Shown one piece after another: positions 22,536 to 43,413 of a DNA stretch of 64,000 nucleotides. The position numbers were made by a program, and so were the translations under genes. Below the pieces are notes generated by a model. The model was not told the DNA's origin and ran no database searches. It saw only the letters and a program-made list of their open reading frames with translations. This stretch comes from Verrucomicrobiota bacterium (GTDB taxonomy: Bacteria > Verrucomicrobiota > Verrucomicrobiia > Verrucomicrobiales > Akkermansiaceae), in NCBI GenBank assembly GCA_017301995.1, contig JAFLEH010000001.1, positions 372,001 through 436,000 of the forward strand, read 5' to 3'. The stretch's first letter is position 1. Every line of letters starts with the position of its first letter.

Positions 22536-24680
22536 CTATTTGAATCTGCCGGTGCCCTTTCCTGCGTTATACTCGGCACATGTGTATTCAATGACAAACT
22601 CTTTCTCGGCCTCATACCTGCTCCACATGCCGTTAGAACCGCCGCCGTATCCATTGTTGTTCAGCCACGTTGCAACCCCGTCAAAGGGCCTATCCTTTTC
22701 GTTCAAGTCCTTTTTTGGTTTTGTATCATGCAGAATTTTGATTCGCAGTGTGACCTTATCGCAACAACACCCGGACGGATCGCATAGTCGCGAAACCATT
22801 GTGTTTTTGTTCTTGGTTTTGCTCGCAAGCATATTTTCGACCAACGTCCCAAGATGCGCATCGAGCCCGTCCTCCGTAGTTTCAGCCATTTCCTTTGACC
22901 AGTATAAATTGTTATCATGCAAAGGAATATCCGGCGGCAACACCTCCTTTGGCAGGCCGAGATTTGCAGTAAACGGGTGGCATGCTAACGCATAGGCGTA
23001 ATAACACGTGTTATCTTTGGGAACATCCCATTTCATCTCGCCACCTCCAATAGAATGCCCAATGTATATGTATATTTCGCATTTGCTGACTTTGTGGCTA
23101 GTGATTGCATCTTCGTGCATTCCGAGAATATCGTAACGGCAAATCGGATCATTTTTCACAAGCCCATACAGGTTCACCCCACCTTGTTCTTCAATCGGGT
23201 CCCGGCTTGGCCATCTCCCGGTTAGCGGGTCGTACCAGCGGTACCCGTAGTAAGTTGCATGCATGCCTTTGGCGTGTTGGGGTGGCTTGTCCAAGGCATT
23301 CATTGGCAACGGTTTAGGAGGATTCCGGCAATCGGGAGGTATGGTCCGTTCGGGTGGCCGGACGGTGGCCGGCACGGGCGGATTCTCCTCCCTGCCGGGC
23401 GGTTTCGGGACCGTCAGGGGGATCGGGCCGGGGCTTGGATAGGTTTCCCGCATGGCTGGGGGAACCCCTATCACCTCCCCGCTACCGCCGCAAGGGGAAT
23501 CTGTCGGGCCACCCGGATTCGGGCCGCCGCCGGGAGGACCCGGTGGTTCGGGTGCCGTTGGTTCGGGCGGATCGTTGGGCGGGGTCTCGGGCGCGGGTGG
23601 CAATTCGGCAGGTTTCTGCGATTCGGGCTGTTCCGGCTCGCGGTAGCCGTGCTCGTAGTCCAGCGGCAGGGTTCCGTGCGGGTGGGTGCGCGCGTGGACA
23701 CCCGCGAGTTCCTCGATATTGACGTGGGTGTAGATCTGCGTGGTTTCTAGCCGCGCATGGCCGAGCATTTCCTGCACATAGCGGATGTCGGCGCCGTTGC
23801 GGTGCATGGCCGTAGCGCATGAATGGCGGAGCAGATGCACGGCTCCCGGCTTTTTGATTCCCGCGCGCTTGAGCAGGCCGGCGATCCAGGTGCCCAGATA
23901 AGCCGGGGTCAGCGGCGTGCCGTATCCGCTCAGAAACAGCCCGCTCTCGCCGGGCAGCCAGGCGAACAGCGGCCGGGATTCCGCCAGATAGCGGTCCAGC
24001 CAGAATGCGGCGCGGCCACCCACGGGCAGCAGGCGGCTTTTGCTGCCCTTGCCCTGGCGCACCAGCAGGGTGCGGGCGTCGGGGTCGTAGTCGGAGCGGT
24101 CGAGCCGGGTCAGTTCGGTGCGCCGGATGCCGGTGGCGTAGAGGACTTCGAGGATCGTCCGGTTCCGCAGGCCCATGGCGTCGGCGGGGTTGGGCAGGGA
24201 AAGCAGGCGGTCGATTTCCTCCTGGCTCAGGGCCTTGGGGAGGCGGCGGGACTGTTTCCGGGGCAGGTCGAGATCGGCCGCGGGGTTGGCGGGGAGGGTG
24301 CCGCAACGGCAGAGCCAGGCGAAGAAGCGGCGCACGACACCCAGCCTGCCGGTCTGGGTGTTGACCCCCAGCGGCTCGCCGGTGCGCGGCGAGCGGTATT
24401 GGTGAAGGTGGAGCTGATAGGCGGCGACGTCGGCGCGGGCGAAGGCGGCGGGCTTCGCAAGCTGGCGGGAATCCGACCATTCCAGAAATCCCCGCAGCGA
24501 CCAGCGGTTGAATTCGACGGAAGCAGGCGAAAGCGCCCGCGTGGCGAGATGTTCGAGAAACGCGGCGGCGTGGGATCTGAGGCTGGCGGCGGGTGGCGGC
24601 GCGGCAGGAGTGGCGGTTGCTCCGCCCTTGCGGCGGCCGCGCATTCCGATGATGTTGGGCATTCCGGGTTGGCCTGGCAT
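22536..24680 (-). CDS. Tyrosine recombinase fused to RHS tip and variable C-terminal domain
   Basis: 714 residues. Residues ~35-325 are a XerC/D-like tyrosine recombinase with a SAM-like core-binding half and a complete active site: Arg186 in ATGIRRTEL, Lys in GKGSKSR, HLLRHS (282/285), LGHAR His308 and Tyr317 in TQIYTHVN. Residues ~345-470 are a proline-rich linker. Residues 473-520 are the RHS repeat-associated tip (YYGYRWYDPLTGRWPSRDPI, then NLYGLVKND). Residues 521-714 are a cysteine-containing domain of unknown family with IYIYIGHSIGGG and YALACHPF. The frame is continuous with no stop across the joins. A 12-copy 21-bp array lies upstream and a possible immunity gene downstream. A later start (MPNIIGMRG, 24662) is possible. 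Confidence 0.75.
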   Translation of the reverse strand: MPGQPGMPNIIGMRGRRKGGATATPAAPPPAASLRSHAAAFLEHLATRALSPASVEFNRWSLRGFLEWSDSRQLAKPAAFARADVAAYQLHLHQYRSPRTGEPLGVNTQTGRLGVVRRFFAWLCRCGTLPANPAADLDLPRKQSRRLPKALSQEEIDRLLSLPNPADAMGLRNRTILEVLYATGIRRTELTRLDRSDYDPDARTLLVRQGKGSKSRLLPVGGRAAFWLDRYLAESRPLFAWLPGESGLFLSGYGTPLTPAYLGTWIAGLLKRAGIKKPGAVHLLRHSCATAMHRNGADIRYVQEMLGHARLETTQIYTHVNIEELAGVHARTHPHGTLPLDYEHGYREPEQPESQKPAELPPAPETPPNDPPEPTAPEPPGPPGGGPNPGGPTDSPCGGSGEVIGVPPAMRETYPSPGPIPLTVPKPPGREENPPVPATVRPPERTIPPDCRNPPKPLPMNALDKPPQHAKGMHATYYGYRWYDPLTGRWPSRDPIEEQGGVNLYGLVKNDPICRYDILGMHEDAITSHKVSKCEIYIYIGHSIGGGEMKWDVPKDNTCYYAYALACHPFTANLGLPKEVLPPDIPLHDNNLYWSKEMAETTEDGLDAHLGTLVENMLASKTKNKNTMVSRLCDPSGCCCDKVTLRIKILHDTKPKKDLNEKDRPFDGVATWLNNNGYGGGSNGMWSRYEAEKEFVIEYTCAEYNAGKGTGRFK

Positions 24681-24835
24681 GGGGAGATCCTACGACGGGC
24701 CGGGTGCGCAAGGCGAGCTTGACACGAGCCCCGGAAATCCGAATCACGGGATTGGTTTTGATTTGCGGGCGACATCCGGCTCTTTTCCTTCGGGCGGGAG
24801 ACGTTTGCACACGCCGCAGGGCCCTATTCACCCGC

Positions 24836-25087
24836 CGGAATGTTTCTCACACTCTCCGGAATGATGCTTACACTCTCCGGAATGTTTCTTACACCCGCCA
24901 AAATGTCTCTTACATTCGTCGGAATGATTCTTACACTAGCCAAAATGTTTCTTACATTCTTCGGAATGATTCTTACACTGACCTGAATGGTTCTTATATT
25001 CGTAGGAATGTTTCTTACATTGGCCCGAATGTTTCTTGTATTCGTCGGAATGTTTCTTGCACTGGCCTGAATGTCGCTTGCACCCGC
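24836..25087. repeat. Twelve tandem 21-bp repeats (iteron-like)
   Basis: Twelve contiguous 21-bp units share a core GAATGTTTCTTACAYT. Odd and even copies differ in their last bases, giving a partial 42-bp period. 21 bp is two helical turns, as in protein-binding iterons. Degenerate copies may extend on both sides. The array lies 156 bp upstream of the recombinase start. Because 21 is divisible by three, several frames stay open, but none has a credible start, so I do not call a protein here. Confidence 0.85.
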
Positions 25088-26022: not shown

Positions 26023-26060
26023 GCCCCGCCCCCTCCGCCGCGAGGGGGCGGGGCATTTTG
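26023..26060 (+). terminator. Strong rho-independent-type hairpin
   Basis: 13-bp GC arms (GCCCCGCCCCCTC / GAGGGGGCGGGGC) with a 6-nt loop are followed by ATTTTGTTT, 50 bp after the stop of the helical gene. It separates that gene from the PA14-protein operon. Confidence 0.85.
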
Positions 26061-26201: not shown

Positions 26202-29200
26202 ATGCGCTCCGTTAAACCTTCCCCGTCCCCGCGCTTCCTCCGGCTGGCGAAAATCTTCGGAATGTCCCGGTCCAACAGATCGCTCCTTGCCGTGCCGCTG
26301 GCTTCATGGGTTCTGGCCGTTCCCTCGGTCGCCCAGAGCAACTGGAATCAGGAGGACCGGGATGCGGACGGCCTGCCCGACGAATTCGAGCGGCACTATT
26401 TCGGCGACCTCTCGCGGACTCCGGCCGAGGACTCCGATCTGGACGGTTGGATCAACAGCCAGGAGTTGGCGCGGGACACCGACCCGACCGCGATAGACCC
26501 TTTGCCGGGCTATCTGCTATATGAACGGTGGGACGGCATCAGCGGAACCGCGCTGTCCAGCCTGATCGCGTCTCCCCATTTCCATGAGGCTCCGGACGCC
26601 CGGTCGTTCATTTCCTCCGCCCAGCTCATGGTCAACAGCGGCGACAACTACGGCGTGCGCCTGCGGGGCACGCTAACCGCCCCGGTGACGGGCAATTTCC
26701 GCTTTTATATCGCTTCCGACGACACGTCCGAACTGTGGCTGGGCAGCGGCCAGGGCAAGTTCACGCGGAGCCGGATCGCTTCCGTTCCGGCTTACACCGG
26801 AGCCAACCAGTGGACCGCCTATCCGGAGCAGACCAGCGCGGTCATCCATCTGGCTGCGGGGCAGAAGTATTACTTCGAGTGCCTGATGAAGGAGGCGGGA
26901 TCAAGCGACAACCTGTCCGTCGGATGGACCTACACTCCGGATGATCCCGCGCTGCCCGCGGTGACATCGGTGGAGGTGATTCCGGGTATCCTGCCGGGCA
27001 CGTCCACCGTCGTGTTTGAAACCTGCGCCCCTGATCCGCTGGACGCCGATGACGACGGGTTGCCGGACGCGTGGGAATTGCAGATCGGCCTCAATCCCGG
27101 CGACAACGGCCTGATCAATTCGGGTGACGGAGGCTACGCGGATCCGGACGGCGACGGGTTCAACAACTATATGGAGTGGGTGAGCGGTGGCGATCCGTAT
27201 GTGGCGGGGGGCAACCCCGGCTATGTCCAGCGGGACATCTGGAAGAACATCAGCGGCAGCACGGTGGCGAGCCTGACCTCGGCCGCCGCGTTTCCCAAGC
27301 CTGCCGGTTCCTCGGCGTTCGTTTCCACTCCGCTTTCCTTCGTCTCGGCCGGCGACAACTACGGCCAGCGGGTGAGAGGCATGGTCGTGCCTCCGCGGGC
27401 CGGCAACTGGCGGTTCTGGATCGCCGGCGACGACGCGTGCGAGCTGTGGGTCTCGGGGGACACGCGCCCGTCCGGAAAACGCAAGGCCGCGTTTGTGTCC
27501 GGCTGGACCAATCCGGGCGCATACGACACCACCCCGTCCCAGAAGAGCGCCGCCTACACGCTCGGTGCCGGAGAGGCCAGGTATTTCGAAATTCTGCACA
27601 AGGAAGGCGGCGGCGGCGACCACGTGAGCGTGGCGTGGGCCTACGAACCGGCCAACTGGGCGCTGGCCTCCGCCGGAACGACCGCCACCCAGAGCAGCAC
27701 CTACGGCGGCCAGGACGCGTCCCGCGCCATCGACGGCAACACCTCGGGCGCTCCGGCATCGAACACCATGTCCCATACCAACAGCACGACCAATAGCTGG
27801 TGGCAGGCGGATTTCGGAACCGACCGGCCGGTGAACCGGATCGTGGTTTTCAACCGCACCGACGCGATCCAGAACCAGCAGCGGCTATCAAACTTCCGCA
27901 TCTCCGTCATCAACGCGGCCGGAGCGGAAATCACCGTGCAGGATTTCAACACCGCTTCCGGGCAGTATGTGAACGGTTCCATGATCTGGAATCTGCCCTC
28001 CACGGTCACCGCCAGGAAGATCAGGATCCAATTCCTCGGCTACAATCTGATGGGCAACGGCTTCATGTGCCTGGCCGAGGTGCAGGCGTTCGAGTGGGTT
28101 CCCGAGGCCACCCGCCAGGTGGTGCCCGCCACCGCCCTGCGCACGGCTGTCCCCGATCCCGCCGACACGGATGGCGACAGCCTTCCGGACGCATGGGAGA
28201 TCCAATACGCGCTCAACCCCACCGACAACGGGGCGGCGGTCCAGTCCCAGGGAGAATACGGGGATCCGGATGCCGACGGCATCGCCAATTTCATCGAATT
28301 CATCAATGACACCCTGTCGAGTCCCAGCCCGCCAAACGCTCCAAACGGCACGCCGGGATCCCTCCAGCGCGACACCTGGTGGAATCTGGCGGGAGGCAGC
28401 GTCGCCGACCTCGTCCGCGCCCCGGCTTTCCTCGAATACCCGTCCGTGAGGGACCCGCTCGCGGCCTGGCAGACCGCCGCGCGGGCGAATTACTACGGCC
28501 AGCGGCTGCGCGGGAGTTTCTCCACCCAGACCGAAGGCTGGTACACGTTCTGGATCGCGGGGGACAACTGCTGCGCCCTCTATCTCAACAGCGGTTCCCA
28601 CGCGTCCGGACCCTATGCCGCCGAGAACGCGGCCAACCGCAAGTTCGGCAAGCGGCTCATCGCGTCCGTAGGCGGCGAGTCCTTCCTTTTCGGGCCTCCC
28701 TCCACCGGGGCCACCGAGTATGACAAGTTCCCCTCGCAGCGCTCCGAACGGATCTGGCTGGCGGCAAACGTGCCGTATTATATGGAAGTGCTCCACAAGG
28801 AAGACACCGGCGGCGACCATGTGACGGTGGCGGTTGAGCCGCCCGGAGGAACCCGGGAGACGATCCCGTTCACCTCGCTCACCTCTTTCGTCTATGACCC
28901 GGACGATAACGACGACGACGACCTGCCGGACAACTGGGAGTCCCTTATGGGCCTCGATCCCGGCGACAACGGCCGCCTCAACACCGGCGTGGAGGGAGCG
29001 CTCGGGGACGCGGACGGCGACCAACTCACCAACCGCGAGGAGTATCTGCTCGGGACCGACCCGAAAGACGCCGACTCCGACAACGACACGCTTTCCGATT
29101 TCGTCGAGGTCCGCAGCCTCGGGTCCGATCCCGGCAATGGCGCTTCGGGACTGGGAACCGTCCTGACGAACCTCGCCGGGTCGGCGGGAACCGCCTTGGC

Positions 29201-31082
29201 CGGGCAATGGATCGCCGGACCGGAAAACACGCTGCTCTCTCTGGAACGGCGCGGATCCGCCTATTGGGATTTCACGCTCGCCAGCGCCGGATGGCATCTG
29301 CTGGAGGTGCTCGCCACGCCGCAGGGCAACACCTGGGCGGGTGCCCCTCTCACCGTGGAAATCACCGTTACCCGTCTATCCGATTCCAAGCGGTGGGACA
29401 TCGGAACCTTCCCGCTGCGCGACGACGAGGGCCAGCCCACCCGCATTCTCACCCTGCTGCCCTCGCTTCCCGCCGGAGCCTACCGCGCCACCGTCGCCAT
29501 CCGCAATGTTTCGGAAAGCCGCAACATCCGGATCGACAGCCTGCGGATCATCGCTCCGAGCGGTGCCGACACCACCCCGCCGAACGGCATCCCCGACTGG
29601 ATTGAAGCGCGCCTCGGACAATCCAACGGCATCGACTCGCCCGCCACCAGCCCGGTTTCTCCGGCATGCGTCGAGGGCGTCGCCCGCGATGTCGCCAAGT
29701 CTTGGCTCACCGTCGGCACCCAGACGATCCCGCTGGAAGCCGGCATCGACAACCGCTGGTTCGCCAACGTGGCCCTGCCGTCCGATGGCAGCGCCCAAAC
29801 CCTGACGGCCAGTTTCGAGGACGCGTCCCTCGTCCAGAGCCGGTCGGTTTCGTGGGCAGCCACCAACCTGCTCCCCGCCTCGGATTTCACCATCCGCGCG
29901 GGCGACTCGCTGCGCCTGACCGCCCACCCGGCGGGTGACAACTCCGGGACATTCACGGTCAACGGCTCGCTGGATCCGGCCGATTCCCCGCTCACTGCCG
30001 TGACGTTCTCCGGCTATCTGCCCACCAGCGCCGCAACGGCGGCCGTCGTCCGGCCGGATCTCGATCTGACCCTGCTCACCGGCGCGTCCGGGACCCTGCA
30101 GGGAGGGTGGATCCCCACCGCCAAGGCGGCCTCCGCCTATCACATCGCGCAGGGAACGGACTCCGCCACGTTCCAGCTCCAGTTCAAGGACAGCACCTAC
30201 ACCAAGGCCGTCAAGATCCAACTGGACCGCACCGCCTCCGGCATCAAGGCATGGCAGATCTACGCCAAATACGTTTCCGGCGACCAACTCGGCGCGGACT
30301 TCGATTCGATAGCCGCCAGCAACGCCCCCGTCGGCTCGGGCGGTTACGGCGTGATCGCGCTTTCGATCAGCCACTTCTATGCCCATGCTGGACCCATCGA
30401 AATCACCGGCCAGACCCCGGTTTCCGCGGCCGCGCCGCTACCGGTGGAATTCACGATCCCCGGCGTCCACACCCTGACGGCCATCCACAGCCCGTCCGGT
30501 GTCTCCAAGACCATCGGCATCCGTGTCGTGGCGGCGGATTTCGGCCCCGCTTTCCCGGTCCGCTCGGACCGCTGGCGGGACTGGACGCTTTCCACCAGCA
30601 TCGCCGCCGGCCTGCCGATCGAATGGGACGGCCGTCTGAGCGTTTCCGAACTCGAACCGCTCGCCGGGGCGCGCCGCCTGCGGGTTGCCGCCACGGGCGA
30701 CGATCCCGTGCGCCTGGTCGCCCGCACGGCGGTGGACGCCACCGTTGCCGCCAAGGGCACCGTTGATCCCTATCTCGTGGGCGACATCTACGACACCGGA
30801 TTGGTGGAGGTCATCGAAACCCTGCCGGACGGCACCCTCCATGGCCGGATCTCGGTCGTTGCGGACCGTCTGCCTCCCGGCGGATACATTGAAATCCAGA
30901 TCTGGGCGGGCGGAGGACAGTTCGCGGGAGGAACCGGAGTGACGAGGCTCTACGCCAGCGCCTTCGATGCCAACGGCGTGGCCATGGTGGATGTTTACTA
31001 TCCGTCCCAAGCCGCGATCTCCTCGTTCTGCGCCTACTACCGGCTTTACGACGGGGCTGGCAACCTGCTGAGCGGGTATTGA
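26202..31082 (+). CDS. Giant secreted protein with PA14, discoidin and TSP3-like domains
   Basis: 1626 residues from ATG 26202; ATG 26262 (MSRSNRSLLAVPLASW) gives a cleaner signal peptide ending SVAQ. Order: calcium-type TSP3 segment ~50-98 (DRDADGLPDEFE); PA14 domain ~100-245; TSP3 ~277-330; PA14 ~340-487; F5/8 (discoidin) carbohydrate-binding domain ~488-630 (ASRAIDGNTSG, WWQADFG); TSP3 ~650-705; PA14 ~720-885; TSP3 ~905-985; then ~640 residues of beta-sandwich-like sequence. PA14 and discoidin domains commonly bind glycans, so an adhesin-like or target-binding role is likely. It is the first gene of an apparent operon with the helical protein and RHS. Confidence 0.85.
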   Translation: MRSVKPSPSPRFLRLAKIFGMSRSNRSLLAVPLASWVLAVPSVAQSNWNQEDRDADGLPDEFERHYFGDLSRTPAEDSDLDGWINSQELARDTDPTAIDPLPGYLLYERWDGISGTALSSLIASPHFHEAPDARSFISSAQLMVNSGDNYGVRLRGTLTAPVTGNFRFYIASDDTSELWLGSGQGKFTRSRIASVPAYTGANQWTAYPEQTSAVIHLAAGQKYYFECLMKEAGSSDNLSVGWTYTPDDPALPAVTSVEVIPGILPGTSTVVFETCAPDPLDADDDGLPDAWELQIGLNPGDNGLINSGDGGYADPDGDGFNNYMEWVSGGDPYVAGGNPGYVQRDIWKNISGSTVASLTSAAAFPKPAGSSAFVSTPLSFVSAGDNYGQRVRGMVVPPRAGNWRFWIAGDDACELWVSGDTRPSGKRKAAFVSGWTNPGAYDTTPSQKSAAYTLGAGEARYFEILHKEGGGGDHVSVAWAYEPANWALASAGTTATQSSTYGGQDASRAIDGNTSGAPASNTMSHTNSTTNSWWQADFGTDRPVNRIVVFNRTDAIQNQQRLSNFRISVINAAGAEITVQDFNTASGQYVNGSMIWNLPSTVTARKIRIQFLGYNLMGNGFMCLAEVQAFEWVPEATRQVVPATALRTAVPDPADTDGDSLPDAWEIQYALNPTDNGAAVQSQGEYGDPDADGIANFIEFINDTLSSPSPPNAPNGTPGSLQRDTWWNLAGGSVADLVRAPAFLEYPSVRDPLAAWQTAARANYYGQRLRGSFSTQTEGWYTFWIAGDNCCALYLNSGSHASGPYAAENAANRKFGKRLIASVGGESFLFGPPSTGATEYDKFPSQRSERIWLAANVPYYMEVLHKEDTGGDHVTVAVEPPGGTRETIPFTSLTSFVYDPDDNDDDDLPDNWESLMGLDPGDNGRLNTGVEGALGDADGDQLTNREEYLLGTDPKDADSDNDTLSDFVEVRSLGSDPGNGASGLGTVLTNLAGSAGTALAGQWIAGPENTLLSLERRGSAYWDFTLASAGWHLLEVLATPQGNTWAGAPLTVEITVTRLSDSKRWDIGTFPLRDDEGQPTRILTLLPSLPAGAYRATVAIRNVSESRNIRIDSLRIIAPSGADTTPPNGIPDWIEARLGQSNGIDSPATSPVSPACVEGVARDVAKSWLTVGTQTIPLEAGIDNRWFANVALPSDGSAQTLTASFEDASLVQSRSVSWAATNLLPASDFTIRAGDSLRLTAHPAGDNSGTFTVNGSLDPADSPLTAVTFSGYLPTSAATAAVVRPDLDLTLLTGASGTLQGGWIPTAKAASAYHIAQGTDSATFQLQFKDSTYTKAVKIQLDRTASGIKAWQIYAKYVSGDQLGADFDSIAASNAPVGSGGYGVIALSISHFYAHAGPIEITGQTPVSAAAPLPVEFTIPGVHTLTAIHSPSGVSKTIGIRVVAADFGPAFPVRSDRWRDWTLSTSIAAGLPIEWDGRLSVSELEPLAGARRLRVAATGDDPVRLVARTAVDATVAAKGTVDPYLVGDIYDTGLVEVIETLPDGTLHGRISVVADRLPPGGYIEIQIWAGGGQFAGGTGVTRLYASAFDANGVAMVDVYYPSQAAISSFCAYYRLYDGAGNLLSGY

Positions 31083-31086
31083 GGAG

Positions 31087-31114
31087 GTCATGGGTCATTG
31101 GTCATCAGTCATTG
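31087..31114. repeat. Heptanucleotide repeat (GTCATTG type)
   Basis: Four tandem 7-bp units of GTCATNN span the junction between the PA14-protein stop and the next gene. They resemble short tandemly repeated repetitive sequences known in cyanobacteria. Confidence 0.6.
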
Positions 31115-31119
31115 GTAGG

Positions 31120-32097
31120 ATGAAAAGGCCGCGCACAGCCATTCTCGCCGCCACCGCCGCCGTTCTGGTTGCGGGTGGCCTGGGCCTGTGGTGGTCGTGG
31201 CATCCCGGCAAGGCAGGGTCGGCTTCAGGCAGCCAGACACTTGAAACTGAAAACTTGAAACTTGAAACCCGGCCTCCTCTCCATCCCGCGGTCGCCCGCA
31301 TTGTCGGGGAAGGCCCAGCCATGCCTTACCTGCGGTTCTTCCACCTGCTCAAGGAGATTCCCACCGACCTAGCGGAGCACGACATCGCCGCCCTGCTCGA
31401 CCTGGTCTCCGGCCCCGCGCCCGAGGCCTTCCGGGAGACGGAATGGGGATCGCTGGCCAACGACATCGAGGAGGCGCTCACCGTGCAAACCCGGCCTTCC
31501 GCAACCGTCGCCCGCGGTCTGCGGGACATCTATCGGGACGAATCCCGGCCCCGGATCCAGCGCGACTATGCGCTCCAGCACATCGGCGGCTTCGCCATCT
31601 TCCTGGTCCGCACGCGGGACGATCCCATGCCGGAGGCTTCCCGCGAAATCCTGGACTCACTGCTGGCCGATCTGCGTCACGCCGCTTCCGACCCCTCCAA
31701 ACCCTGGGCCGGAACCTCCCTCAACCTGCTGGATGGCATCCTGCGCGCCGCCGAGTCCCGCTCCATCGTCGTGCGGGATCTGGATCCGGCCGCGCTCGTC
31801 GCCCTCGCCCTGCCCATCGCCGGCAATCCCTCGCTCCCGCTCAACGCCAGGCTCCCGGCGCTCCAACTCGCGGGCCGCCACCGTTCGCCGGAGGCCGCCG
31901 CGCTCGCACGGAGCTTCCTCGCCGATCCGGCATCCCCGGTGATGCTCGTCCAGTGCTCCGCGGCCGTGCTCGGCCAAGGAGGTTCCCGTAACGACCTGCC
32001 GCTTCTCGAAGACGCGCTCGCCTCCGCTTCCCGCCATACCGCGCCCGCCCTCCGCGAGGCGATCCGATCCCTCTCGCCGCCCCAAACCCACCCTTGA
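31120..32097 (+). CDS. Membrane-anchored helical-repeat protein
   Basis: 325 residues from MKRPRTAILAATAAVLVAGG. One N-terminal membrane segment, then a low-complexity linker encoded by a heptanucleotide repeat (31240-31267), then ~270 residues of helical, HEAT-like sequence (PYLRFFHLLKEIPTDLAEHD, QRDYALQHIGGFAIFLVRTR, PLNARLPALQLAGRHRSPE). The in-frame ATG at 31090 is rejected because it lies within a heptanucleotide repeat. It sits between the PA14 protein and the RHS protein with short gaps (37 and 31 bp), so a role in their export or surface assembly is plausible but unproved. Confidence 0.65.
   Translation: MKRPRTAILAATAAVLVAGGLGLWWSWHPGKAGSASGSQTLETENLKLETRPPLHPAVARIVGEGPAMPYLRFFHLLKEIPTDLAEHDIAALLDLVSGPAPEAFRETEWGSLANDIEEALTVQTRPSATVARGLRDIYRDESRPRIQRDYALQHIGGFAIFLVRTRDDPMPEASREILDSLLADLRHAASDPSKPWAGTSLNLLDGILRAAESRSIVVRDLDPAALVALALPIAGNPSLPLNARLPALQLAGRHRSPEAAALARSFLADPASPVMLVQCSAAVLGQGGSRNDLPLLEDALASASRHTAPALREAIRSLSPPQTHP
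31240..31267. repeat. Heptanucleotide repeat (CTTGAAA) inside gene
   Basis: Four tandem 7-bp units (CTTGAAA, CTGAAAA, CTTGAAA, CTTGAAA) encode part of the linker near residue 45. Gain or loss of one unit would shift the reading frame. Confidence 0.65.
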
Positions 32098-32128
32098 AGA
32101 ATCCCATTTCCAAACCGCCCATCCGTCC

Positions 32129-35100
32129 ATGAAACGAATCCCCCTATGCTACCTCACTTCGCTGGCCGTCCTCTTTTCCTCCGGTCCCGCTTCCGCTAAT
32201 CCCAAGTTCTATTCGACGTGTAGGGCAAGCTGCGATGCCTGCAAGTCGCCCGCCGAGAATGCGGACTCCACCAAGTGCGATCCTTCCGCTGACGCCGGTG
32301 GTATCACAATATCGGTCACCTCCGAAACAAGCCAGGATGATGCCGATGAGCAGTGCGTTGAGAAGCTCGTCAACCCCATCGCCACCACCACCAGCGCCTC
32401 CTCCCCGAATGCCCACGGGGTGTCGCTCCTCAACTACCAGCGTGCGGCGCTCGTCCATGACGGCGGATCACCGGACTCCCTCAAATACGAGACCGTCAAC
32501 GGCGTGCGCACGCCGCGCCAGCTTTCCGCCCCCCGCGCCGTCTTCGACATCACCGATACCGCCGACGGCAAGGGCTACCAGATAAACCAATACTGGAAGG
32601 ACCAACTGCCCGCCGCGGGAGCGGACGGCATACGCGCCATCCCCTCGGCAGCCACCCCGGTAACCAGCACGATCTTCCGCAATCCCGACGGTGGTGCCGG
32701 AACGACCTCCGGCAAACTGGATGTCCTCCACCGGACAATACACCCCACCACCGGCGTCCCCGTGACCAAGGGTGTCCGCTTCGATTGCCCGGTCGGCCAG
32801 AATTCTTGGACCAGATCCCACTTCATGGGTGATCCGTCAGAACAGGGAGCGCAGGCTTACCGCACCGTCACCATGGAGCGCGAGATCCATGCCGATGGGA
32901 CGGAGACCATCACCGAGACCACCTACGATCTCGACAGCGGCGGCACCATGGTCATCACCGGCCGCACCCGGACCAAATACGCCTTCTACAAATACGGGTT
33001 TCCGGTGCCTCTGGTGCGCACCATCCTCGCCGCGCCGGCCGCCACCACCGGCCCAACCACCACTTGGACCTATCACACCGATCGCGCCCAGCCCGTTTCC
33101 TTCAACAAACCGGCCACCATGCGGGAAAGCGGTGGATCGTGGGCGAACTACACCTATCAGGGCAGCGAGGTCACCGGCACCACCGTCACCAAGATCGTGA
33201 CCGGATGGCTCGACAATCCCGCCCCTGCCGCCGGCATCGCCCCCGACGAGAACGCCAACCGCGTGGTCACCGTGATCGAGTCCCACAACGACACCGGAAC
33301 CCTGGGCCGCGAGGAAAAGATCCAGAATGTGACCGTGTCCAAAACCTGGGGCGAACGCCACAAGAACCAAGCCGGCGAAGTGGTCGAGACCACCAACGTC
33401 CGGCGCGGGACAGCCACCCTCACCACCGTCCGCACCGGCTACGCGGACGATACCACCTCGGCGGAAGTCGAACGCGGACGCCTCAAGTCCATCCGTTTCG
33501 CGGACGGCACCTTCGAACTCCACCGCTACCGGGCGGAGGGGGACAACCGGGTCGAAACCATCGACACCGGCGTCGGCACCGCCTCCGCGGTCACCGACGG
33601 CACCCGTGTGGTCAAGACATGGTCCCGCCGCAACGTCCTCATCAAGGAGGAGGTTTCCGACATCGCCTCCGGCATCGCCCTCTCCACCCGCATGGCCATC
33701 GCCTTCACGCCGGCGGGCAGCCCCACCCGCTGGGCCTACGACAACGATCCGGACGACTATTCTGAAACCCTCTACGGCTGCTGCGGCATCGACAGCGAGC
33801 GCTCCCGTGACGGCGTCACCGCCACCCATTTCCACGACGGACTGAAGCGCCTCACATCCACCAAGTCCCTCGGCGTCACCACCACCCGCGTTTACGGCCA
33901 CTCCACGGACGGCTATCCCACCCTCGCTGTCACTGAAACAGCCGGAGAAGGAGACGCCGCCCGCACCCGAGATCAGGGAACCACCGTCCACGACTGGGCC
34001 GGACGCCTCATCCGCCAAATCTCCCCCGACCTCGACGGCGACGGCCCCCCCGAGACCACCGCAACCACCTACACCAGCCCCACGGAAACCGGAACGCTCT
34101 ACCCCAACGGAGGCACCTCCGTTTCCACCACCTACCTTGATGGCCAGTCGAAATCCGTCTCCGGCACCGCCGCCGCCGACGCATCCTACCAATACACCGT
34201 CGGCACCGACCTCGACGGCATCCTCGGCGCTGTCATGAAGACCACCCTCACCCGCCCCTCCGGCACCGACGCGGGCAACCTGGTCACCGAGACCTATTCG
34301 GCCGTCGGCGGTCTCACGCTCGCCGTCAAGACCAACAGCGTCGTCACCGCCACCTACGCCCACGACACCCTAGCCCGGCCCGTCCTCAGCACCGATGGCG
34401 ACGGCGTGAAATCCCACACCGCCTACAACGCCAAAGGCGAGGCCTACCGCCGCGCAGCCTCCCGCGACGGCAACGACACCATCGACATTGGCGCCGACAT
34501 CGTCACCGACACCCTGACCGACATCACCGAAGTGCCCAATTTCGGCCCCGCCATCCGCACCCGCGTGATCCGCTGGACCGGCGGAGAATCCAGCCTCGTC
34601 TCTACCAGCCTCCGCTCCCCGGACGGCACCAAATCCGCCTCCTACTCCCCCGGTGTCGCCGCTCCCGCCACCACCCTGGCCGCCACCTACCTCGACCGCA
34701 CCGACGGCATCTGGACCGATACCTCCACCGCCCCCGACGGCACCAAACAAACCACCACCTACGCCAACTGGCTGCCCGTCACCGAAGCATCTTATTCCAG
34801 TCTTCCGTCTTCAAGTCTTCTGTCTTCTGTCTCGACCACCTACGATGCCCTGCGTCGCCCGGAAACCTCCACCGACTCCCGCACCTCCGCGCACGTTATC
34901 CGCCGCACCGCCTACCACCCCACCAACGGCCTCGTCGTTTCCGTCACCGAGGACCTTGCCGCAGCAGGTGCCACCGACCGCGTCACCGCCTTCGAATACG
35001 ACAACATGGGCCGCACCGTGACAACCACCCTGCCCGACACCACAAAGACCCGCCACACCTTCACCCTCACCGGCCAATCCGAGGCCACCTGGGGCAGTCA

Positions 35101-37705
35101 GTCCTACCCCACCTTCGCCACCTACGACGAACAGGGCAGGCTCCGCACCCTGCGCACCAAGCCCACCCTAACCGCCGCCGGTGCACCCACCGATGCCGGA
35201 GGCTCGCTGACCACCTGGCTCTACTACCCCAACGGTCGCCTCCAGCAAAAGAAAGACGCCGCTGGAAAAGGCGCCTCCTACACCTACACCTCGGCGGGCC
35301 GCATCCTCACCCGCCTTTGGGCGCGGGGCCGCCTGACCACCTACACCCACACCCAGGGATTCCTAACCAGCGTTTTCTACACGGGCGACGACGCCACCTG
35401 GGCCGCCTACGAAGCCGCCGCCGGAAATTGGGAAACCGTCAACACCAATCCCGCTAGCACCCAGCAGCAGAAGGATGACGCGCTTGCCGCGATGAACGAC
35501 GCCTACGCAGCATTCGCCGCCGAGTCGGACGTCTCTACACCGGCGGTTGGCATCGCATATGACAATCTGGGCCGCACTGACACCGTCAGGCAGGCAGGCG
35601 TGATAAACGCCGACTTCGGCTATACCGGCGCGTTTCTCACCTCGGAAATCCTAGGTTCCGGAAACAACGCCCGGACGCTGATCCGCCATTACGACGCCGC
35701 CGGCCGCCCGCGTTCGCTCGCTGTCGGTCAGGAATACAGCACGGCATACGGCTACGATACCGGCGGCCGGCTCAACCGGATCTGGGATCACCCGGCTCTG
35801 GATCAGGGAGAGCCACAAGGCAATCCCTCCTTCACCTACACCTACACCCCGGAGTCCACCTATCTGCTTCAAACCGTGGCAGGCCCTGCCCACACCGTCA
35901 CCAATACTTGGGAAACCACCCGCGATGTTCTCGCCACCAAGGTCAACGCGTTTACTGTGGGAACGCCCTCGGTCCCTTCCTCCTTCGCCTACGGCGTGAA
36001 TTCCATCGGCCAGCGGGAAACCGTGGACCCGGTCTCCGGCATGAATTCCACCTACGTTCCCAAGTGGACCTGGACCTATGATTCCATGGGGCAGATCACC
36101 ACCGCGGCAGACCGCGCGGCGTCGAACCACCGGGCCTATCAATTCGACAGCATCGGCAACTGCCTCTCAAGGAGCGTGGGCGTCCCGCCCACATCCACCG
36201 CCACCTACACCCCCAACGCCCTCAATCAATACGACGCGATCACCGAAGGCTCAGTCACCTTCGCGCCAACCCACGATGACGACGGGAATCAAAAGGACGC
36301 GCAGATTCTTCCTCTTGGGGCATCAGGTCCTGCCTCTTGCGTCTATCACTGGGACGGCGAGAACCGCCTCGTTGCCGTCAAGGACACCAACGGTACCACC
36401 CTCGTCTCCTACGCCTACGACGCATTCTCCCGCCTGGTCTCAAGGACAACCATCGTCAACAACCAGCCAGCCACCACCTGCTACCTCTACGACGGCTGGA
36501 ACCGCATTGCAGAATACGCTGGACAAGCCCTCCAGAAGACCTATCTTTGGGGCATGGATTTGAGCGGCACCATGCAAGGCGCGGGCGGAGTCGGCGGACT
36601 CCTCTCCGTTTCGGCCCACGATCCCGAAACCGGCAACGTTACCTCCGTCCACTATCCAACCTGCGACGGCAACGGCAATATTACCGAATATCTCACAGCT
36701 ACCGGAGACGTCGCCGCCCATTTCGAATATGACCCATTTGGGAACACCTTGGCCGCCACCGGTGATGCCGCGCAGTTCGAGTATCGCTTCTCCACCAAAC
36801 CGCAGGATTCAGCCACCGGACTGCTGTATTACGGCTACCGCTGGTATGATCCGCTAACCGGCAGATGGCCGTCACGGGATCCGATTGAAGAAAGCGGCGG
36901 CTACAATCTATACGGATTCATCGGAAATGATGGGCTGGATTGGGTGGATTACATGGGCTATGGCGAGATTGTGACGGTATCGGGAATCAACGCCCTCCCG
37001 GATAAAGGTGGACCAATTAGGGATTTGATCGACTATGTCGGAATGGAATTAGAAGGTCATGGTATAAATGTTAAGTCCGATAACCGCCATCACAGTGATG
37101 CCGGTACTGCAGGCCTGAACAATTGGAACTATATATGTCCAGGCGGCAAACCGTTTGTTGCAGTGCCGTGGTCAAAAAGCATTTTGGACAAGGAGGCGCA
37201 GGAATATGCTGCGCGCTGCTGCGAGCCCAGAGAATACTGCAAAAAGAAGGTCTGCGTGGTCATGATCGCCCCGAAAACCCACACTCTTCCGCCCAAAGAT
37301 GGCTGCTGCAAACTCGAAATAAAAGTCTGGTGGGATCCCTATGACCCCGTTCCCAATCAGGGCATATTCACGGGGACCGAAAGCCAATCATGGTGGAGCC
37401 GGTTTGGCGATGCTTACCCGGTGCAGTCCGAGAGCGGGGGTAATCATGATTTCGATAAGTTCACGCGACGCAATCCCTTGTATGACACCAATTGGAAATA
37501 CGACAAACGCCAATCGCCGAAGCCGCCGGGACCCAAAGGTGGTGTCCCGCCGCCGACTCCAAAGTGGCCGACGAGTGGCAAAACCGCCCCCAATCCGATA
37601 GATGCCATCAAACGCTTTCAGAAGGATTGCGATTATACATTCGTATGTCACAGCCAGGGATGCAACATCACAATGCAATTTCTACAACGGGCCTGCAAGA
37701 AATGA
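32129..37705 (+). CDS. Sec-exported RHS repeat protein with variable C-terminal domain
   Basis: 1858 residues. The signal peptide is CYLTSLAVLFSSGPASA; a cysteine-rich N-terminal region follows (CRASCDACKSPAE). Residues ~250-1580 are YD/RHS repeats (YDNLGRTDTVRQ, YDAFSRLVSRTT). The RHS-associated tip YYGYRWYDPLTGRWPSRDPI lies near 1575-1590. Residues ~1610-1858 are a cysteine-rich variable domain encoded by visibly AT-richer DNA, with WWDPYDPVP (~1735), NHDFDKF (~1772) and a nucleophile-like CHSQG (1840-1844). RHS shells are known to encapsulate toxic C-terminal domains. Its TGA stop overlaps the ATG of the following lipoprotein gene, the usual toxin-immunity layout. Confidence 0.88.
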   Translation: MKRIPLCYLTSLAVLFSSGPASANPKFYSTCRASCDACKSPAENADSTKCDPSADAGGITISVTSETSQDDADEQCVEKLVNPIATTTSASSPNAHGVSLLNYQRAALVHDGGSPDSLKYETVNGVRTPRQLSAPRAVFDITDTADGKGYQINQYWKDQLPAAGADGIRAIPSAATPVTSTIFRNPDGGAGTTSGKLDVLHRTIHPTTGVPVTKGVRFDCPVGQNSWTRSHFMGDPSEQGAQAYRTVTMEREIHADGTETITETTYDLDSGGTMVITGRTRTKYAFYKYGFPVPLVRTILAAPAATTGPTTTWTYHTDRAQPVSFNKPATMRESGGSWANYTYQGSEVTGTTVTKIVTGWLDNPAPAAGIAPDENANRVVTVIESHNDTGTLGREEKIQNVTVSKTWGERHKNQAGEVVETTNVRRGTATLTTVRTGYADDTTSAEVERGRLKSIRFADGTFELHRYRAEGDNRVETIDTGVGTASAVTDGTRVVKTWSRRNVLIKEEVSDIASGIALSTRMAIAFTPAGSPTRWAYDNDPDDYSETLYGCCGIDSERSRDGVTATHFHDGLKRLTSTKSLGVTTTRVYGHSTDGYPTLAVTETAGEGDAARTRDQGTTVHDWAGRLIRQISPDLDGDGPPETTATTYTSPTETGTLYPNGGTSVSTTYLDGQSKSVSGTAAADASYQYTVGTDLDGILGAVMKTTLTRPSGTDAGNLVTETYSAVGGLTLAVKTNSVVTATYAHDTLARPVLSTDGDGVKSHTAYNAKGEAYRRAASRDGNDTIDIGADIVTDTLTDITEVPNFGPAIRTRVIRWTGGESSLVSTSLRSPDGTKSASYSPGVAAPATTLAATYLDRTDGIWTDTSTAPDGTKQTTTYANWLPVTEASYSSLPSSSLLSSVSTTYDALRRPETSTDSRTSAHVIRRTAYHPTNGLVVSVTEDLAAAGATDRVTAFEYDNMGRTVTTTLPDTTKTRHTFTLTGQSEATWGSQSYPTFATYDEQGRLRTLRTKPTLTAAGAPTDAGGSLTTWLYYPNGRLQQKKDAAGKGASYTYTSAGRILTRLWARGRLTTYTHTQGFLTSVFYTGDDATWAAYEAAAGNWETVNTNPASTQQQKDDALAAMNDAYAAFAAESDVSTPAVGIAYDNLGRTDTVRQAGVINADFGYTGAFLTSEILGSGNNARTLIRHYDAAGRPRSLAVGQEYSTAYGYDTGGRLNRIWDHPALDQGEPQGNPSFTYTYTPESTYLLQTVAGPAHTVTNTWETTRDVLATKVNAFTVGTPSVPSSFAYGVNSIGQRETVDPVSGMNSTYVPKWTWTYDSMGQITTAADRAASNHRAYQFDSIGNCLSRSVGVPPTSTATYTPNALNQYDAITEGSVTFAPTHDDDGNQKDAQILPLGASGPASCVYHWDGENRLVAVKDTNGTTLVSYAYDAFSRLVSRTTIVNNQPATTCYLYDGWNRIAEYAGQALQKTYLWGMDLSGTMQGAGGVGGLLSVSAHDPETGNVTSVHYPTCDGNGNITEYLTATGDVAAHFEYDPFGNTLAATGDAAQFEYRFSTKPQDSATGLLYYGYRWYDPLTGRWPSRDPIEESGGYNLYGFIGNDGLDWVDYMGYGEIVTVSGINALPDKGGPIRDLIDYVGMELEGHGINVKSDNRHHSDAGTAGLNNWNYICPGGKPFVAVPWSKSILDKEAQEYAARCCEPREYCKKKVCVVMIAPKTHTLPPKDGCCKLEIKVWWDPYDPVPNQGIFTGTESQSWWSRFGDAYPVQSESGGNHDFDKFTRRNPLYDTNWKYDKRQSPKPPGPKGGVPPPTPKWPTSGKTAPNPIDAIKRFQKDCDYTFVCHSQGCNITMQFLQRACKK
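34800..34835. repeat. Heptanucleotide repeat (GTCTTCT) inside RHS gene
   Basis: Five near-tandem GTCTTCN units (one with an extra base) encode a serine/leucine insert (SLPSSSLLSSV) that interrupts an otherwise regular RHS segment. Confidence 0.6.
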
Positions 37706-38166
37706 GGACATTACTGATAGTTTTATGTATGGGTTGGCTTCTGCCGGGGTGCGGAATGGCGGTTTTCGAGTATCATCCTAGACGCTACGCTTGTGCCGAT
37801 TCCCCGGCTTGGGGCTGCTTGAGAAAGGGGGCCGTCATTGAAACAACGCGGGATATCCTTGTAACGGACTACAGCGGGCACATTCTCGGCGGGGTTGAGA
37901 GAGTCTATATTCCTAGCTCTGTTCCGCAGCGAAGTGACAACTCCCGAATCAGCAGCGGAGAGCGTTTCACGGTCGTGTCACTCTCGGAAAAAGGCGGGTA
38001 TTCTATTACCTGGAATAGCTTAGCACTAACTGACAAGCGTGGAAGAAGCCTGGTTGTCGAAAGGACAGGAGGCCTTTATAGAGACGATTTGTATTCCGAG
38101 CAAATGTTGCACGATATCGGCTTTCGATTAATTAGATTGGAAAATGAACCGCACACCAACCCATAG
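37702..38166 (+). CDS. Lipoprotein, candidate immunity to RHS domain 1
   Basis: 154 residues. Lipoprotein signal TLLIVLCMGWLLPGC with Cys17, then a beta-rich domain (AVIETTRDILVTDYSGHILG, RFTVVSLSEKGGYSITWNS). ATG 37702 overlaps the RHS stop (ATGA), so translation is coupled; the longer upstream open frame is inside the RHS gene. AT-rich relative to flanking core genes. No family recognised. Lipidation would place it in the periplasmic or outer membrane, where it could neutralise an envelope-acting RHS toxin. Confidence 0.7.
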   Translation: MRTLLIVLCMGWLLPGCGMAVFEYHPRRYACADSPAWGCLRKGAVIETTRDILVTDYSGHILGGVERVYIPSSVPQRSDNSRISSGERFTVVSLSEKGGYSITWNSLALTDKRGRSLVVERTGGLYRDDLYSEQMLHDIGFRLIRLENEPHTNP

Positions 38167-38170
38167 CACT

Positions 38171-38231
38171 TAAACGAGGCCGCCAACCGCAAATGCCGTG
38201 CCAGTCGGGGATCAAAATGCAGTCGGATCGG
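38171..38231 (+). repeat. 61-bp direct repeat, copy 1
   Basis: 58 of 61 positions match 43478-43538. It lies just after immunity gene 1. The two copies bracket the second and third RHS-tip cassettes. Confidence 0.85.
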
Positions 38232-40300
38232 AGCTTCTTTGGAGAACGGTCCGCGGCGATGGCGGCTTGGCCCTCCCAATATTCGTCAGAACGCCCCAAC
38301 CCAAGGTCCACCCACGCCAAACCACCGGCCGCCTCGAAACCGTCTCCGGCAATAGTTCCGGCACCTTCACCTACGGCTACGAAACCAACAGCAGCCTCGT
38401 CAAAACCGTCTCTCGCCCCGGCATTCTCGCGGGCCAGCCCGAACTCCGCGTCACCAACACCTGGGAACCCTCCCGCGATGTCCTCTTGACAAAGGCCAAC
38501 GAACTGGTATTGGGTGAAACCGTCACCGACGTATCCTCCATCACCTACACCGTGAACGCCATCGGCCAGAGAACCCACGCCACCCGCACCGGCGCCGCCA
38601 CCAACGGCACCGAGTGGGGCTACGACATTCTCGGGCAGTTAGAGGCGGCGGACGACACCACGGCGGGTCGCGACCGCTCCTTCGCCTACGATAGCATTGG
38701 GAACCGGCTCACTGCCGCCGCAGGCGACTGGGACACTTCCGGCCAGACCCCGGTTTTCGACCCCGACTCCGCGACCGCCTACACCCCCAACGCCCTCAAC
38801 CAATACGACGCCATCACCACGGACAACACTCCATTCACCCCGATCCACGATGACGATGGCAACCAAAAGGACGCGCAGATTCTTCCTCTTGGGGCATCAG
38901 AACCTGCCTCTTGCGTCTATCACTGGGACGCGGAGAACAGATTGACCTCTGTCACATCCACCACCGGCGCAGTTCTCGCCTCCTACGCCTACGATGCCTT
39001 CTCCCGCCTCATCTCAAGGAGCGTGGGCGTCTCGCCCACCACCACCACCGCCTACATCTATGACGGATGGAACCGCATCGCCCAATACACTGTCACGCCG
39101 GGCAATCCGAATATCACGCCTCCGACGGTGGCCGTTGCCTCCCTCTCCAAAACCTATCTCTGGGGCTTGGATCTGAGCGGCAGCTTCCAAGGCGCGGGCG
39201 GAGTCGGCGGACTCCTGTCCGTCAACACCATTGGCGGCTCCATCCACTATCCGACCTACGACGGAAACGGCAACATCACCGAATACCTGACCGTCGCGGG
39301 AGACGTCGCCGCCCACTTCGAATATGATCCATTTGGGAACACCCTGGCCGCCACAGGTGATGTCGCGCAATTCGAGTATCGCTTCTCCACCAAACCGCAG
39401 GATTCGGCTACCGGCCTCTACTACTACGGGTACAGGTTCTACGACCCCCTAACCGGAAGATGGCCGTCACGCGACCCGATCGGGGAGACTTTCTCTCAAA
39501 ATCTAAACGCTTTCGTTTCAAATTCTCCAGTCACGATGTACGATACGCTGGGTTTGGCAAATACCTATCCGGAGCCTACTGGAAAGGGAGTTCCATTGGA
39601 GGATAAAGACGGCAACAAAACCTATCTCGAACCAAAATGCACAACAAGTGTATGCGGTCCGGATATTACAAAAGCGTTGCAAGCTGCGATGAGGCAATTA
39701 ACTCAGTTCTTTCGTGGGTTACCTTTAAGGGATAGAATTTCAGTGTGTGCAACGTTTTATGATGGAGACGGGTGGGATATAGAACAATTGTATCAGAATA
39801 CCGAAAATCCAATCCCTAACTCCTGCGGTCAGGCGTCGTCGCGCAATGAGGAGAATTGCGGAAAGACGGTCACATACGAAGGAAGTTGCTACTACAGAGG
39901 ATCAGTCAACTATGTCTTATGGGGGAGGATGCACGATTTATGTGGCATTGGTCAGAATCCCATGAACCACATATTGTGGGCACGAAAAGTTGCGCTTAGT
40001 GGCAAATGGACACTCGGTAATTGGTATCGAGGCGAATGGAGTCTTACCCCACATCATTCATACTATCCCGCGCATGACTGGGCCCAAATGGGATATTTTA
40101 ATAAGGTTTATCCCGGATCAAAGGCCATCGCGCCTGCTTCTGATAGGCCATATTGCAAGCCCTGCACTAAGAAATGGAATGGGCCATTTTCAATCCATGT
40201 CGGCGTCTTGTCGAGCGGCGAGAAGTGGGGAATCAATGGCCCTACCGCGGGGAGGGATGACTACGAGAGGGAGTCAAAACGCATCTTCCCTCAAGGTTAA
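38198..40300 (+). CDS. Orphan RHS tip cassette 2 with variable domain
   Basis: An open frame of 700 residues. The first ~40 residues are encoded by the 61-bp repeat and unrelated sequence; RHS homology begins near 38321 (TGRLETVSGNSSGTFTYGY). It carries several RHS repeats and the tip YYGYRFYDPLTGRWPSRDPI near residue 410-430. The variable domain (~440-700) is cysteine-rich: VCGPDITKAL, GSCYYRGSVNYVLWGRMHDLC, HHSYYPAHDW, HVGVLSSGEKWGINGP. There is no signal peptide or convincing start, so it is likely a silent cassette that can recombine into the full RHS gene. Nucleotide identity with that gene is high around the tip. Confidence 0.65.
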   Translation: MPVGDQNAVGSELLWRTVRGDGGLALPIFVRTPQPKVHPRQTTGRLETVSGNSSGTFTYGYETNSSLVKTVSRPGILAGQPELRVTNTWEPSRDVLLTKANELVLGETVTDVSSITYTVNAIGQRTHATRTGAATNGTEWGYDILGQLEAADDTTAGRDRSFAYDSIGNRLTAAAGDWDTSGQTPVFDPDSATAYTPNALNQYDAITTDNTPFTPIHDDDGNQKDAQILPLGASEPASCVYHWDAENRLTSVTSTTGAVLASYAYDAFSRLISRSVGVSPTTTTAYIYDGWNRIAQYTVTPGNPNITPPTVAVASLSKTYLWGLDLSGSFQGAGGVGGLLSVNTIGGSIHYPTYDGNGNITEYLTVAGDVAAHFEYDPFGNTLAATGDVAQFEYRFSTKPQDSATGLYYYGYRFYDPLTGRWPSRDPIGETFSQNLNAFVSNSPVTMYDTLGLANTYPEPTGKGVPLEDKDGNKTYLEPKCTTSVCGPDITKALQAAMRQLTQFFRGLPLRDRISVCATFYDGDGWDIEQLYQNTENPIPNSCGQASSRNEENCGKTVTYEGSCYYRGSVNYVLWGRMHDLCGIGQNPMNHILWARKVALSGKWTLGNWYRGEWSLTPHHSYYPAHDWAQMGYFNKVYPGSKAIAPASDRPYCKPCTKKWNGPFSIHVGVLSSGEKWGINGPTAGRDDYERESKRIFPQG

Positions 40301-40758
40301 TGGTTCGGCAACCACTTGATAACATTATGAATCAGGTTGTTTTATGTTGTCCCCGTTTGAGGTTCTTGCGATGTTTCCTCTGCGGAGTCTACTTGATCGT
40401 TTGCGAAATGCTCAATTCTTGTGGGCGCAGTCCATCTCCCGCCGCGGATCGGTTGGATGAGATCATTCAGGATGGAGAGCAAATTCGGTCGGAAGTTGCT
40501 CAGCTTCAATCCAATCATATTGTTAGTGAAGACGAATTCTATGATCACTTTAAGGGGCGGTGCCAGGGCTGGTCGTATAATTTGATCGGTGATAGAAGCT
40601 ATTCCCTTGCATATAGAGAGCGCCGTGGGGGACGGAAAGGGGCGCTTGTTATGTATCGATTCAATTACGCCGATAGCCCAGAATGCGAAACTCCATTCAA
40701 AACCGGTTGGTATGTCATGGGAGAACACGAATGGATGCGCTACAACACGACCAAGTGA
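40300..40758 (+). CDS. Lipoprotein-like candidate immunity 2
   Basis: 152 residues from ATG 40300, which overlaps the RHS stop by one base (TAATG); an alternative start is 40327 (MNQVVLCC). A hydrophobic stretch FLCGVYLIVCEMLNSC resembles a lipoprotein signal. The mature part is polar (ADRLDEIIQDGEQIRSEVAQ, CQGWSYNLIGDRSYSLAYRE). Family unknown. Position and envelope targeting match the other small genes after RHS domains here. Confidence 0.6.
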   Translation: MVRQPLDNIMNQVVLCCPRLRFLRCFLCGVYLIVCEMLNSCGRSPSPAADRLDEIIQDGEQIRSEVAQLQSNHIVSEDEFYDHFKGRCQGWSYNLIGDRSYSLAYRERRGGRKGALVMYRFNYADSPECETPFKTGWYVMGEHEWMRYNTTK

Positions 40759-42940: not shown

Positions 42941-43413
42941 GAGCCACGATATTCGCAGTTAGATCAATCGTCGTAATTGTGGTTGGTCTTTGTTTCCTGG
43001 TGGGTGGATATATCCTCGGTGTCCACGGTCGCAAAGATAACATTGGGCGACCTTTGATTAACAACGCCGAGGCAATATACAGAAAGGGAGAGCATCTTGA
43101 GGAATCCGAGGAGCGGCTCGCGAGAAACTCAGGGTTTTGGGCTACGAATGACGGTGTTTGCGGTGTTGATCTAGACTATCGGATAATATCTTTTTCAAAA
43201 TCCGGGTATAAGGGAGGTTGGGAAGAATTGAATGGAAACAAATATCTTATCGGTCAGGGCATGGACTTTATGACAAACACTGGTTTTTATTATATAGATT
43301 GTCTCGATGAATCGGAGATGATTCTCAGGAAAGAGACTTTTTCCAGCCCGGAAATCACTTGGGTCGATACTGTTACTTTCCGCAAGATTGATAAAAGTAA
43401 AAATGAACAATGA
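42937..43413 (+). CDS. Membrane-anchored candidate immunity 3
   Basis: 158 residues. One N-terminal membrane segment (SIVVIVVGLCFLVGGYILGV), then a soluble domain (EAIYRKGEHLEESEERLARN, NKYLIGQGMDFMTNTGFYYI). ATG 42937 overlaps the stop of cassette 3 (ATGA), so the pair is translationally coupled. Strongly AT-rich with non-core codon use (ATA, AGA, TTA), a sign of transfer. Family unknown; immunity role inferred from context. Confidence 0.65.
   Translation: MRATIFAVRSIVVIVVGLCFLVGGYILGVHGRKDNIGRPLINNAEAIYRKGEHLEESEERLARNSGFWATNDGVCGVDLDYRIISFSKSGYKGGWEELNGNKYLIGQGMDFMTNTGFYYIDCLDESEMILRKETFSSPEITWVDTVTFRKIDKSKNEQ

Follow-up and report, generated by a model that had tools for sequence, protein, structure and literature searches.

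A Recurrent Giant-HEAT-RHS Gene Set of Verrucomicrobiota: A Candidate Polymorphic-Toxin System Independent of Type VI Secretion

The window analyzed here, a stretch of 64,000 nucleotides (C1:372001-436000 of the 7.04-Mb genome G000), contains an operon for a giant exported protein, a membrane-anchored HEAT-like protein (HEL) and an exported RHS protein. We propose, with a probability of roughly 55%, that this operon is a self-contained polymorphic-toxin system of Verrucomicrobiota that functions independently of the type VI secretion system (T6SS) and is probably antibacterial. RHS polymorphic toxins are already known; what looks new is a dedicated and undescribed pair of partners, the giant with its C-terminal domain (GCT) and the HEAT protein. 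A conserved dedicated partner pair represents a concrete answer, open to testing, to the question of how RHS toxins exit and enter cells without a T6SS or Tc complex, especially in bacteria with two membranes, and it does so for a phylum with few known weapons.

The genes of the giant (26202..31082), HEL (31090..32097) and the RHS protein (32129..37705) all lie on the + strand and are separated by 7 and 31 bp, respectively. They are followed on the same strand by a gene for a lipoprotein of 154 aa (MRTLLIVLCMGWLLPGC; 37702..38166), whose start codon overlaps the RHS stop codon in the sequence ATGA. The layout described in an earlier note on this DNA, four genes of one direction with gaps below 50 bp, is thus accurate. 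A lipoprotein start at 37492 (a 224-aa ORF) is wrong, however: since the lipoprotein ATG at 37702 overlaps the RHS TGA, that ORF is too long. A consensus scan found no strong terminator-like hairpin inside the operon; a strong one, a 13-bp GC-rich stem with a T-rich tail that is a consensus match only, is located 5′ of the operon (26023..26054, + strand).

The linkage of the three genes is far beyond chance, and the set recurs in many families. The order giant-HEAT-RHS on one strand was found at 28 loci from many Verrucomicrobiota families, with most gaps ranging from −4 to 50 bp. The first searches, made by RHS or HEAT in relatives, already revealed this order; because they were biased, the search was repeated by GCT alone. 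In the named GTDB genomes, a HEAT gene was located directly 3′ of the giant at nine of ten loci, the tenth of which stops at a contig edge. In a phylum sample of 388 genomes, 56 had a GCT match (ca. 47 of them strong), and at the 28 assessable loci of this sample HEAT was present at 18, RHS at 20 and both at 15. For all collected assessable GCT loci (n = 60) the corresponding numbers, which like the preceding ones are lower bounds (ORF calling overlooked one giant, at L095), were 45, 44 and 35. As a control, none of the HEAT-type relatives that lie apart from such operons (L168, L174, L177, L183, L187 and L188) had an RHS gene nearby. In addition, the three proteins show correlated distances when compared in pairs (r of 0.68, 0.43 and 0.39; 0 of 2000 permutations), in part through shared species history. 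The earlier note named rarity of this neighbourhood in other genomes among its refuting conditions; the 28 ordered loci and the signs of co-inheritance do not bear this out. The cassette is nevertheless patchy, since GCT was detected in about 22 of 73 genomes of the genus of the window genome and in none of the listed genomes of genus g18 (presumably Akkermansia-like).

It is decidedly unlikely that the giant and HEAT genes form an independent adhesin operon that merely has RHS as a frequent neighbour, or, in a variant of this idea, that the HEAT protein confers immunity as Imm-HEAT proteins do. The former would account for GCT and HEAT being the tightest of the three pairs (r of 0.68), but RHS lies in the same run at 44 of the 60 assessable GCT loci and at 20 of 28 when loci are collected by GCT alone. 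Departures from the standard set do occur. RHS loci without GCT or HEAT also exist, and at five loci (L165, L169, L178, L205 and L251) the giant-HEAT pair is followed by a secreted non-RHS gene, mostly without a Pfam match. The pair is therefore not dedicated to RHS alone, which suggests that it can serve other secreted cargo. The known catalytic domains detected in non-RHS third genes were limited to a pectinesterase/beta-helix (L178) and an amidase, the latter at a second GCT locus of the window genome. This locus (L180; G000 C63:1-5208) is truncated at the contig start and contains the end of a GCT, an 871-aa protein with an N-acetylmuramoyl-L-alanine amidase domain, a 263-aa protein and a HEAT protein. 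An alternative order, DUF1573-HEAT-giant-RHS, was found in three genomes (G017, G006 and G004), the DUF1573 gene being verified with PF07610; at L096, L099 and L095, where DUF1573 comes first, the RHS protein starts with a CC-x-C-type cysteine cluster. At L113, L117, L118, L127 and L128, RHS follows a different, GCT-less large protein that bears TSP3 where scanned; such proteins are perhaps a second partner family.

The giant (1626 aa) carries a signal sequence, TSP3-like linkers, three PA14-like domains, an F5/8 type C (discoidin) domain and the C-terminal GCT, all encoded on the + strand. PA14-like domain 1 (aa 102-246, 26505..26939) was recognized with a profile E of 1.9e-32 and by Pfam PA14, and domains 2 (aa 336-485, 27207..27656) and 3 (aa 716-877, 28347..28832) by profile matches; the discoidin domain (aa 495-615, 27684..28046) matches PF22633 (E 9.5e-16) and PF00754 (E 2.4e-12). 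For the giant as a whole, Pfam reports PA14 at E 1e-16 and an F5/8C or NedA-like galactose-binding domain at E 1e-15. The GCT (29631..31079; profile E 1.8e-108) is the constant part of the giants, comprising ca. 340 residues, and 62 of 64 complete giants have a match to it that ends no more than 22 residues before their last residue; the window copy holds an insert of ca. 110 aa that is common to some relatives. The domain has no Pfam family. Its model is all-beta, a chain of Ig-like domains predicted with moderate confidence (pLDDT 75), and a fold search with it returned generic multi-Ig matches only (TM of about 0.2). Related giants contain from none to six PA14-like copies, and some bear quite different N-terminal modules such as 14 RCC1 repeats (L182) or laminin-G (L178). 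The PA14/discoidin part is therefore one of several exchangeable heads; what defines the giant, as judged from sequence, is the GCT at its C-terminus.

The second protein, HEL (335 aa), is an N-anchored HEAT-like solenoid with the motif RDYA[VL]QHL, as judged from both sequence and model. As can be seen in its predicted structure (pLDDT 86), a single N-terminal membrane helix (aa 14-37; 31129..31200, + strand), also evident in the sequence, precedes the solenoid, in agreement with the membrane-anchored helical protein noted earlier. Between 13 and 28 relatives could be aligned around R-[DL]-Y-A-x-Q-H. HEAT_2 is matched by 20 of 28 family members; the window HEL itself has no Pfam match and is HEAT by fold only, and its fold search matched only generic solenoids. 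The immunity variant mentioned above draws support from PMC3482391, which includes HEAT-repeat proteins among the immunity proteins of polymorphic toxins. Against it, the HEAT gene is retained whatever the tip of the RHS protein, and it is a different gene that directly follows the tip; HEL, located upstream of RHS and kept with unrelated tips, was rejected as the tip immunity protein. An apparent HEAT-giant fusion in L186 proved to be an artefact of a masked run of N.

The third protein is a full-length RHS protein of 1858 aa with an N-terminal signal sequence, RHS repeats and Rhs_assc_core (PF05593 and TIGR03696 both above cut-off), in agreement with the earlier call as Sec-exported. Among relatives, conservation extends over residues 300-1612 and not beyond, its value falling from 0.81 to 0.05 where the core ends. 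This core end (36878..36949, + strand) contains two conserved aspartates, D1584 and D1607, that form a putative aspartyl-autoprotease-type site; of 43 RHS proteins with the motif, 42 have both. Homologues of the core end with known structure are RHS cocoons of the RhsA type and of Tc toxins (TcC, RHS2). What follows is a variable tip, a putative toxin of 238 aa (36989..37702, + strand). It is Cys-rich, has no Pfam match or recognized toxin domain and ends in a nucleophile-elbow-like CHSQG, which is a hint of a lipase-elbow-like motif. Tips of the RHS proteins are 78-495 aa long, with only two similar pairs among 51 tips. The tip of the L240 cassette scored above cut-off as Tae4, a peptidoglycan amidase, has the NSCAAR and SGH motifs and is adjoined by a lipoprotein. 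The L181 tip matched DUF6402 above cut-off, in a cassette interrupted by a transposase-like gene; the L176 and L179 tips gave weak matches of alpha/beta-hydrolase or lipase-like type. In a wider set of 50 tips, LHH nuclease and Ntox44 were matched as well, though by none of the cassette tips that were scanned individually.

The gene directly 3′ of RHS differs in almost every locus, and the lipoprotein therefore does not count as a constant fourth component of the system; it is the private partner of the window tip, of which it is the predicted immunity protein. The four-part operon proposed earlier is thus reduced to a conserved unit of giant, HEL and RHS, followed by a position that holds varying genes. 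A hydrophobic N-terminus was found in the post-RHS gene at 30 of 40 loci, compared to 140 of 464 background genes (Fisher p 3e-8). Within the window, two orphan RHS tails are located 3′ of the operon on the + strand, and each of the three tips is followed by a small protein with a hydrophobic N-terminus. The first tail (38198..40300), whose core C-terminus is 63% identical to the main RHS, has a different tip and no signal sequence and is followed by a lipoprotein-like small protein (40300..40758, + strand); the second (40784..42940), with a third tip, is followed by a small membrane-anchored protein (42937..43413, + strand). Both small proteins are, from their sequences, the predicted immunity proteins of the respective tips. 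The envelope location predicted for these partners suggests envelope-acting toxins, in line with the Tae4 tip and the cysteine content of the window tips. With its conserved core, aspartate pair, near-unrelated tips and small, mostly envelope-targeted neighbours, the RHS protein looks like a polymorphic toxin. These data also bear on the possibility of a surface adhesion or matrix operon, in which RHS would be a structural, teneurin-like YD-shell, the giant and HEAT would serve as anchor, and the tips would vary for recognition. The modules of the giant are typical of adhesion, GCT is modelled as Ig-like beta domains in a row, and some loci have non-RHS partners. Such an operon is unlikely, however, in view of the near-complete divergence of tips that are each followed by their own small, mostly envelope-targeted protein, of a Tae4 amidase tip in which the catalytic motifs are present and of orphan tip-partner pairs 3′ of the operon.

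The claim that no type VI or Tc genes are near holds locally; on other contigs, the window genome has two genes of the VipB sheath protein (C10:74537-75442 and C18:89064-89924) and one TcdB-midN gene (C31:67225-67656). The two VipB genes are the one indication that the RHS protein could be a T6SS-delivered effector. This is most improbable: the protein carries a Sec-type signal and lacks a PAAR domain, and VipB was found in 0 of the 36 other cassette genomes, because of which we consider the system independent of T6SS. Among the closest known systems are T6SS RHS effectors such as RhsA, which shares the predicted cocoon core, the polymorphic tip and the C-terminal pair of aspartates, both of which are required for tip cleavage in RhsA (PMC8765631). 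The spacing of the pair is 22 in RhsA (D1324/D1346) and 23 in the window RHS. RhsA differs in that the window RHS is without PAAR and has a Sec signal, and the other cassette genomes are without T6SS sheath. The class of T2SS/Sec-dependent RHS toxins of Zhang et al. 2012 (PMC3482391) is similar in that it combines a signal sequence and RHS repeats with a toxin at the variable C-terminus, which in the window RHS is putative, and in having orphan cassettes; the immunity gene that follows the toxin in this class has a predicted counterpart in the window. That source lists no signature neighbouring gene for the class, whereas the window system has fixed partners, the giant GCT protein and the HEAT protein.

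In Tc toxins (TcA with TcB-TcC), a separate large subunit likewise accompanies an RHS cocoon. In contrast, the giant is a modular Ig/PA14 protein, RHS is encoded by a single gene, there are immunity-like partners, and no TcA subunit, TcdB-midN or SpvB/TcdB-type domain was found in the operon proteins. A Tc-like toxin against eukaryotes (protists or animals), with the giant as its receptor-binding part, would fit the homology of the RHS core end to TcC and RHS2 cocoons and the separate large receptor-type subunit. It is quite improbable, as the giant and RHS have no TcdB-midN and TcA is lacking, immunity-like partners are required only when a sister cell is the target, and Tae4 cleaves the bacterial wall. 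CDI systems (CdiA/CdiB/CdiI) follow a contact-type logic with an exchangeable tip and immunity and in this resemble the window system as proposed; no two-partner transporter or filamentous haemagglutinin repeats, which are parts of CDI, were found in the operon. WapA of Gram-positive bacteria is a single protein. It is an exported RHS protein with a toxin tip and immunity (PMC12704120), as is predicted for the window RHS. The window system, unlike WapA, would have recognition and anchoring on separate genes, in a two-membrane cell. Comparison of the operon with PADLOC gave no match, and no published description of the giant-HEAT-RHS set was found in the open-licence literature, which is weak evidence; nor did that literature yield a named system with this gene set, in agreement with the earlier note.

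RHS cocoons and their autocleavage are established knowledge. In the polymorphic-toxin system that we favour, the RHS protein would be exported via Sec and, going by its homologues, would fold as a cocoon that encloses the C-terminal tip, which the aspartyl autoprotease would then release. The tip would act in the envelope of the target cell, on peptidoglycan or lipids, and kin would therefore be protected by the product of the next gene, a small lipoprotein or membrane protein. The HEAT protein may reside in the inner membrane with a periplasmic solenoid that serves as scaffold or docking factor. The giant may be an exchangeable target-binding subunit, with interchangeable glycan-binding modules on a conserved GCT; docking of GCT to the RHS or HEAT partner is a guess. 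The self-contained contact-delivery system of the earlier note is upheld as regards a conserved, T6SS-independent three-gene unit, while contact delivery, like docking and target recognition by the giant, is what we infer. If true, targeting would be modular, with a binding subunit and a toxin tip that are each exchangeable. A bolder version, which we put forward tentatively and hold to be possible rather than probable, is a new phylum-wide mode of contact-dependent delivery: giant, inner-membrane HEAT scaffold and RHS cocoon would form one envelope machine that plants tips in the periplasm of a neighbour without T6SS, Tc or CDI parts, its stock of tips being kept by an adjacent tip-carrying Xer-type recombinase.

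The stock of tips in the window genome is considerable. About two dozen further RHS core matches (L002-L025), mostly tail-only ORFs, are spread over contigs C1, C2, C8, C24, C29, C37, C45, C51, C63 and C64, and the operon RHS is the sole full-length copy of its subtype in the genome. The recombinase, an associated element outside the core cassette (22536..24680, − strand), is a XerC/D-type tyrosine recombinase fused in frame, via a Pro-rich linker, to the last ca. 50 residues of an RHS core and then a private tip. The fusion recurs, with six copies in four genomes that have a similar Pro-rich linker and different tips (the G006 copy leaves its contig within the RHS part); no published description of Xer-type recombinase-RHS tip fusions was found in the open-licence literature. 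Among 15 recombinase copies (59 relatives), 12 are located within ca. 5 kb of an RHS gene or tail, and four (L096, L099, L100 and L291) adjoin an RHS cassette or its DUF1573 gene, as the window copy does. The fusions are often divergent beside RHS cassettes, and they could be relevant to the collection and exchange of RHS tips. An att-site at the conserved core end was considered and rejected: recombinase action there would predict DNA conservation in excess of what the protein requires, but codon identity, taken at equal residues over 105 codons in 11 own-genome copies, stayed flat (0.47-0.59), and therefore no att-site is seen in the core-end DNA. Between the recombinase fusion and the operon lies an array of ca. 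12 copies of a 21-bp unit, with a higher unit of 42 bp (24829-25074).
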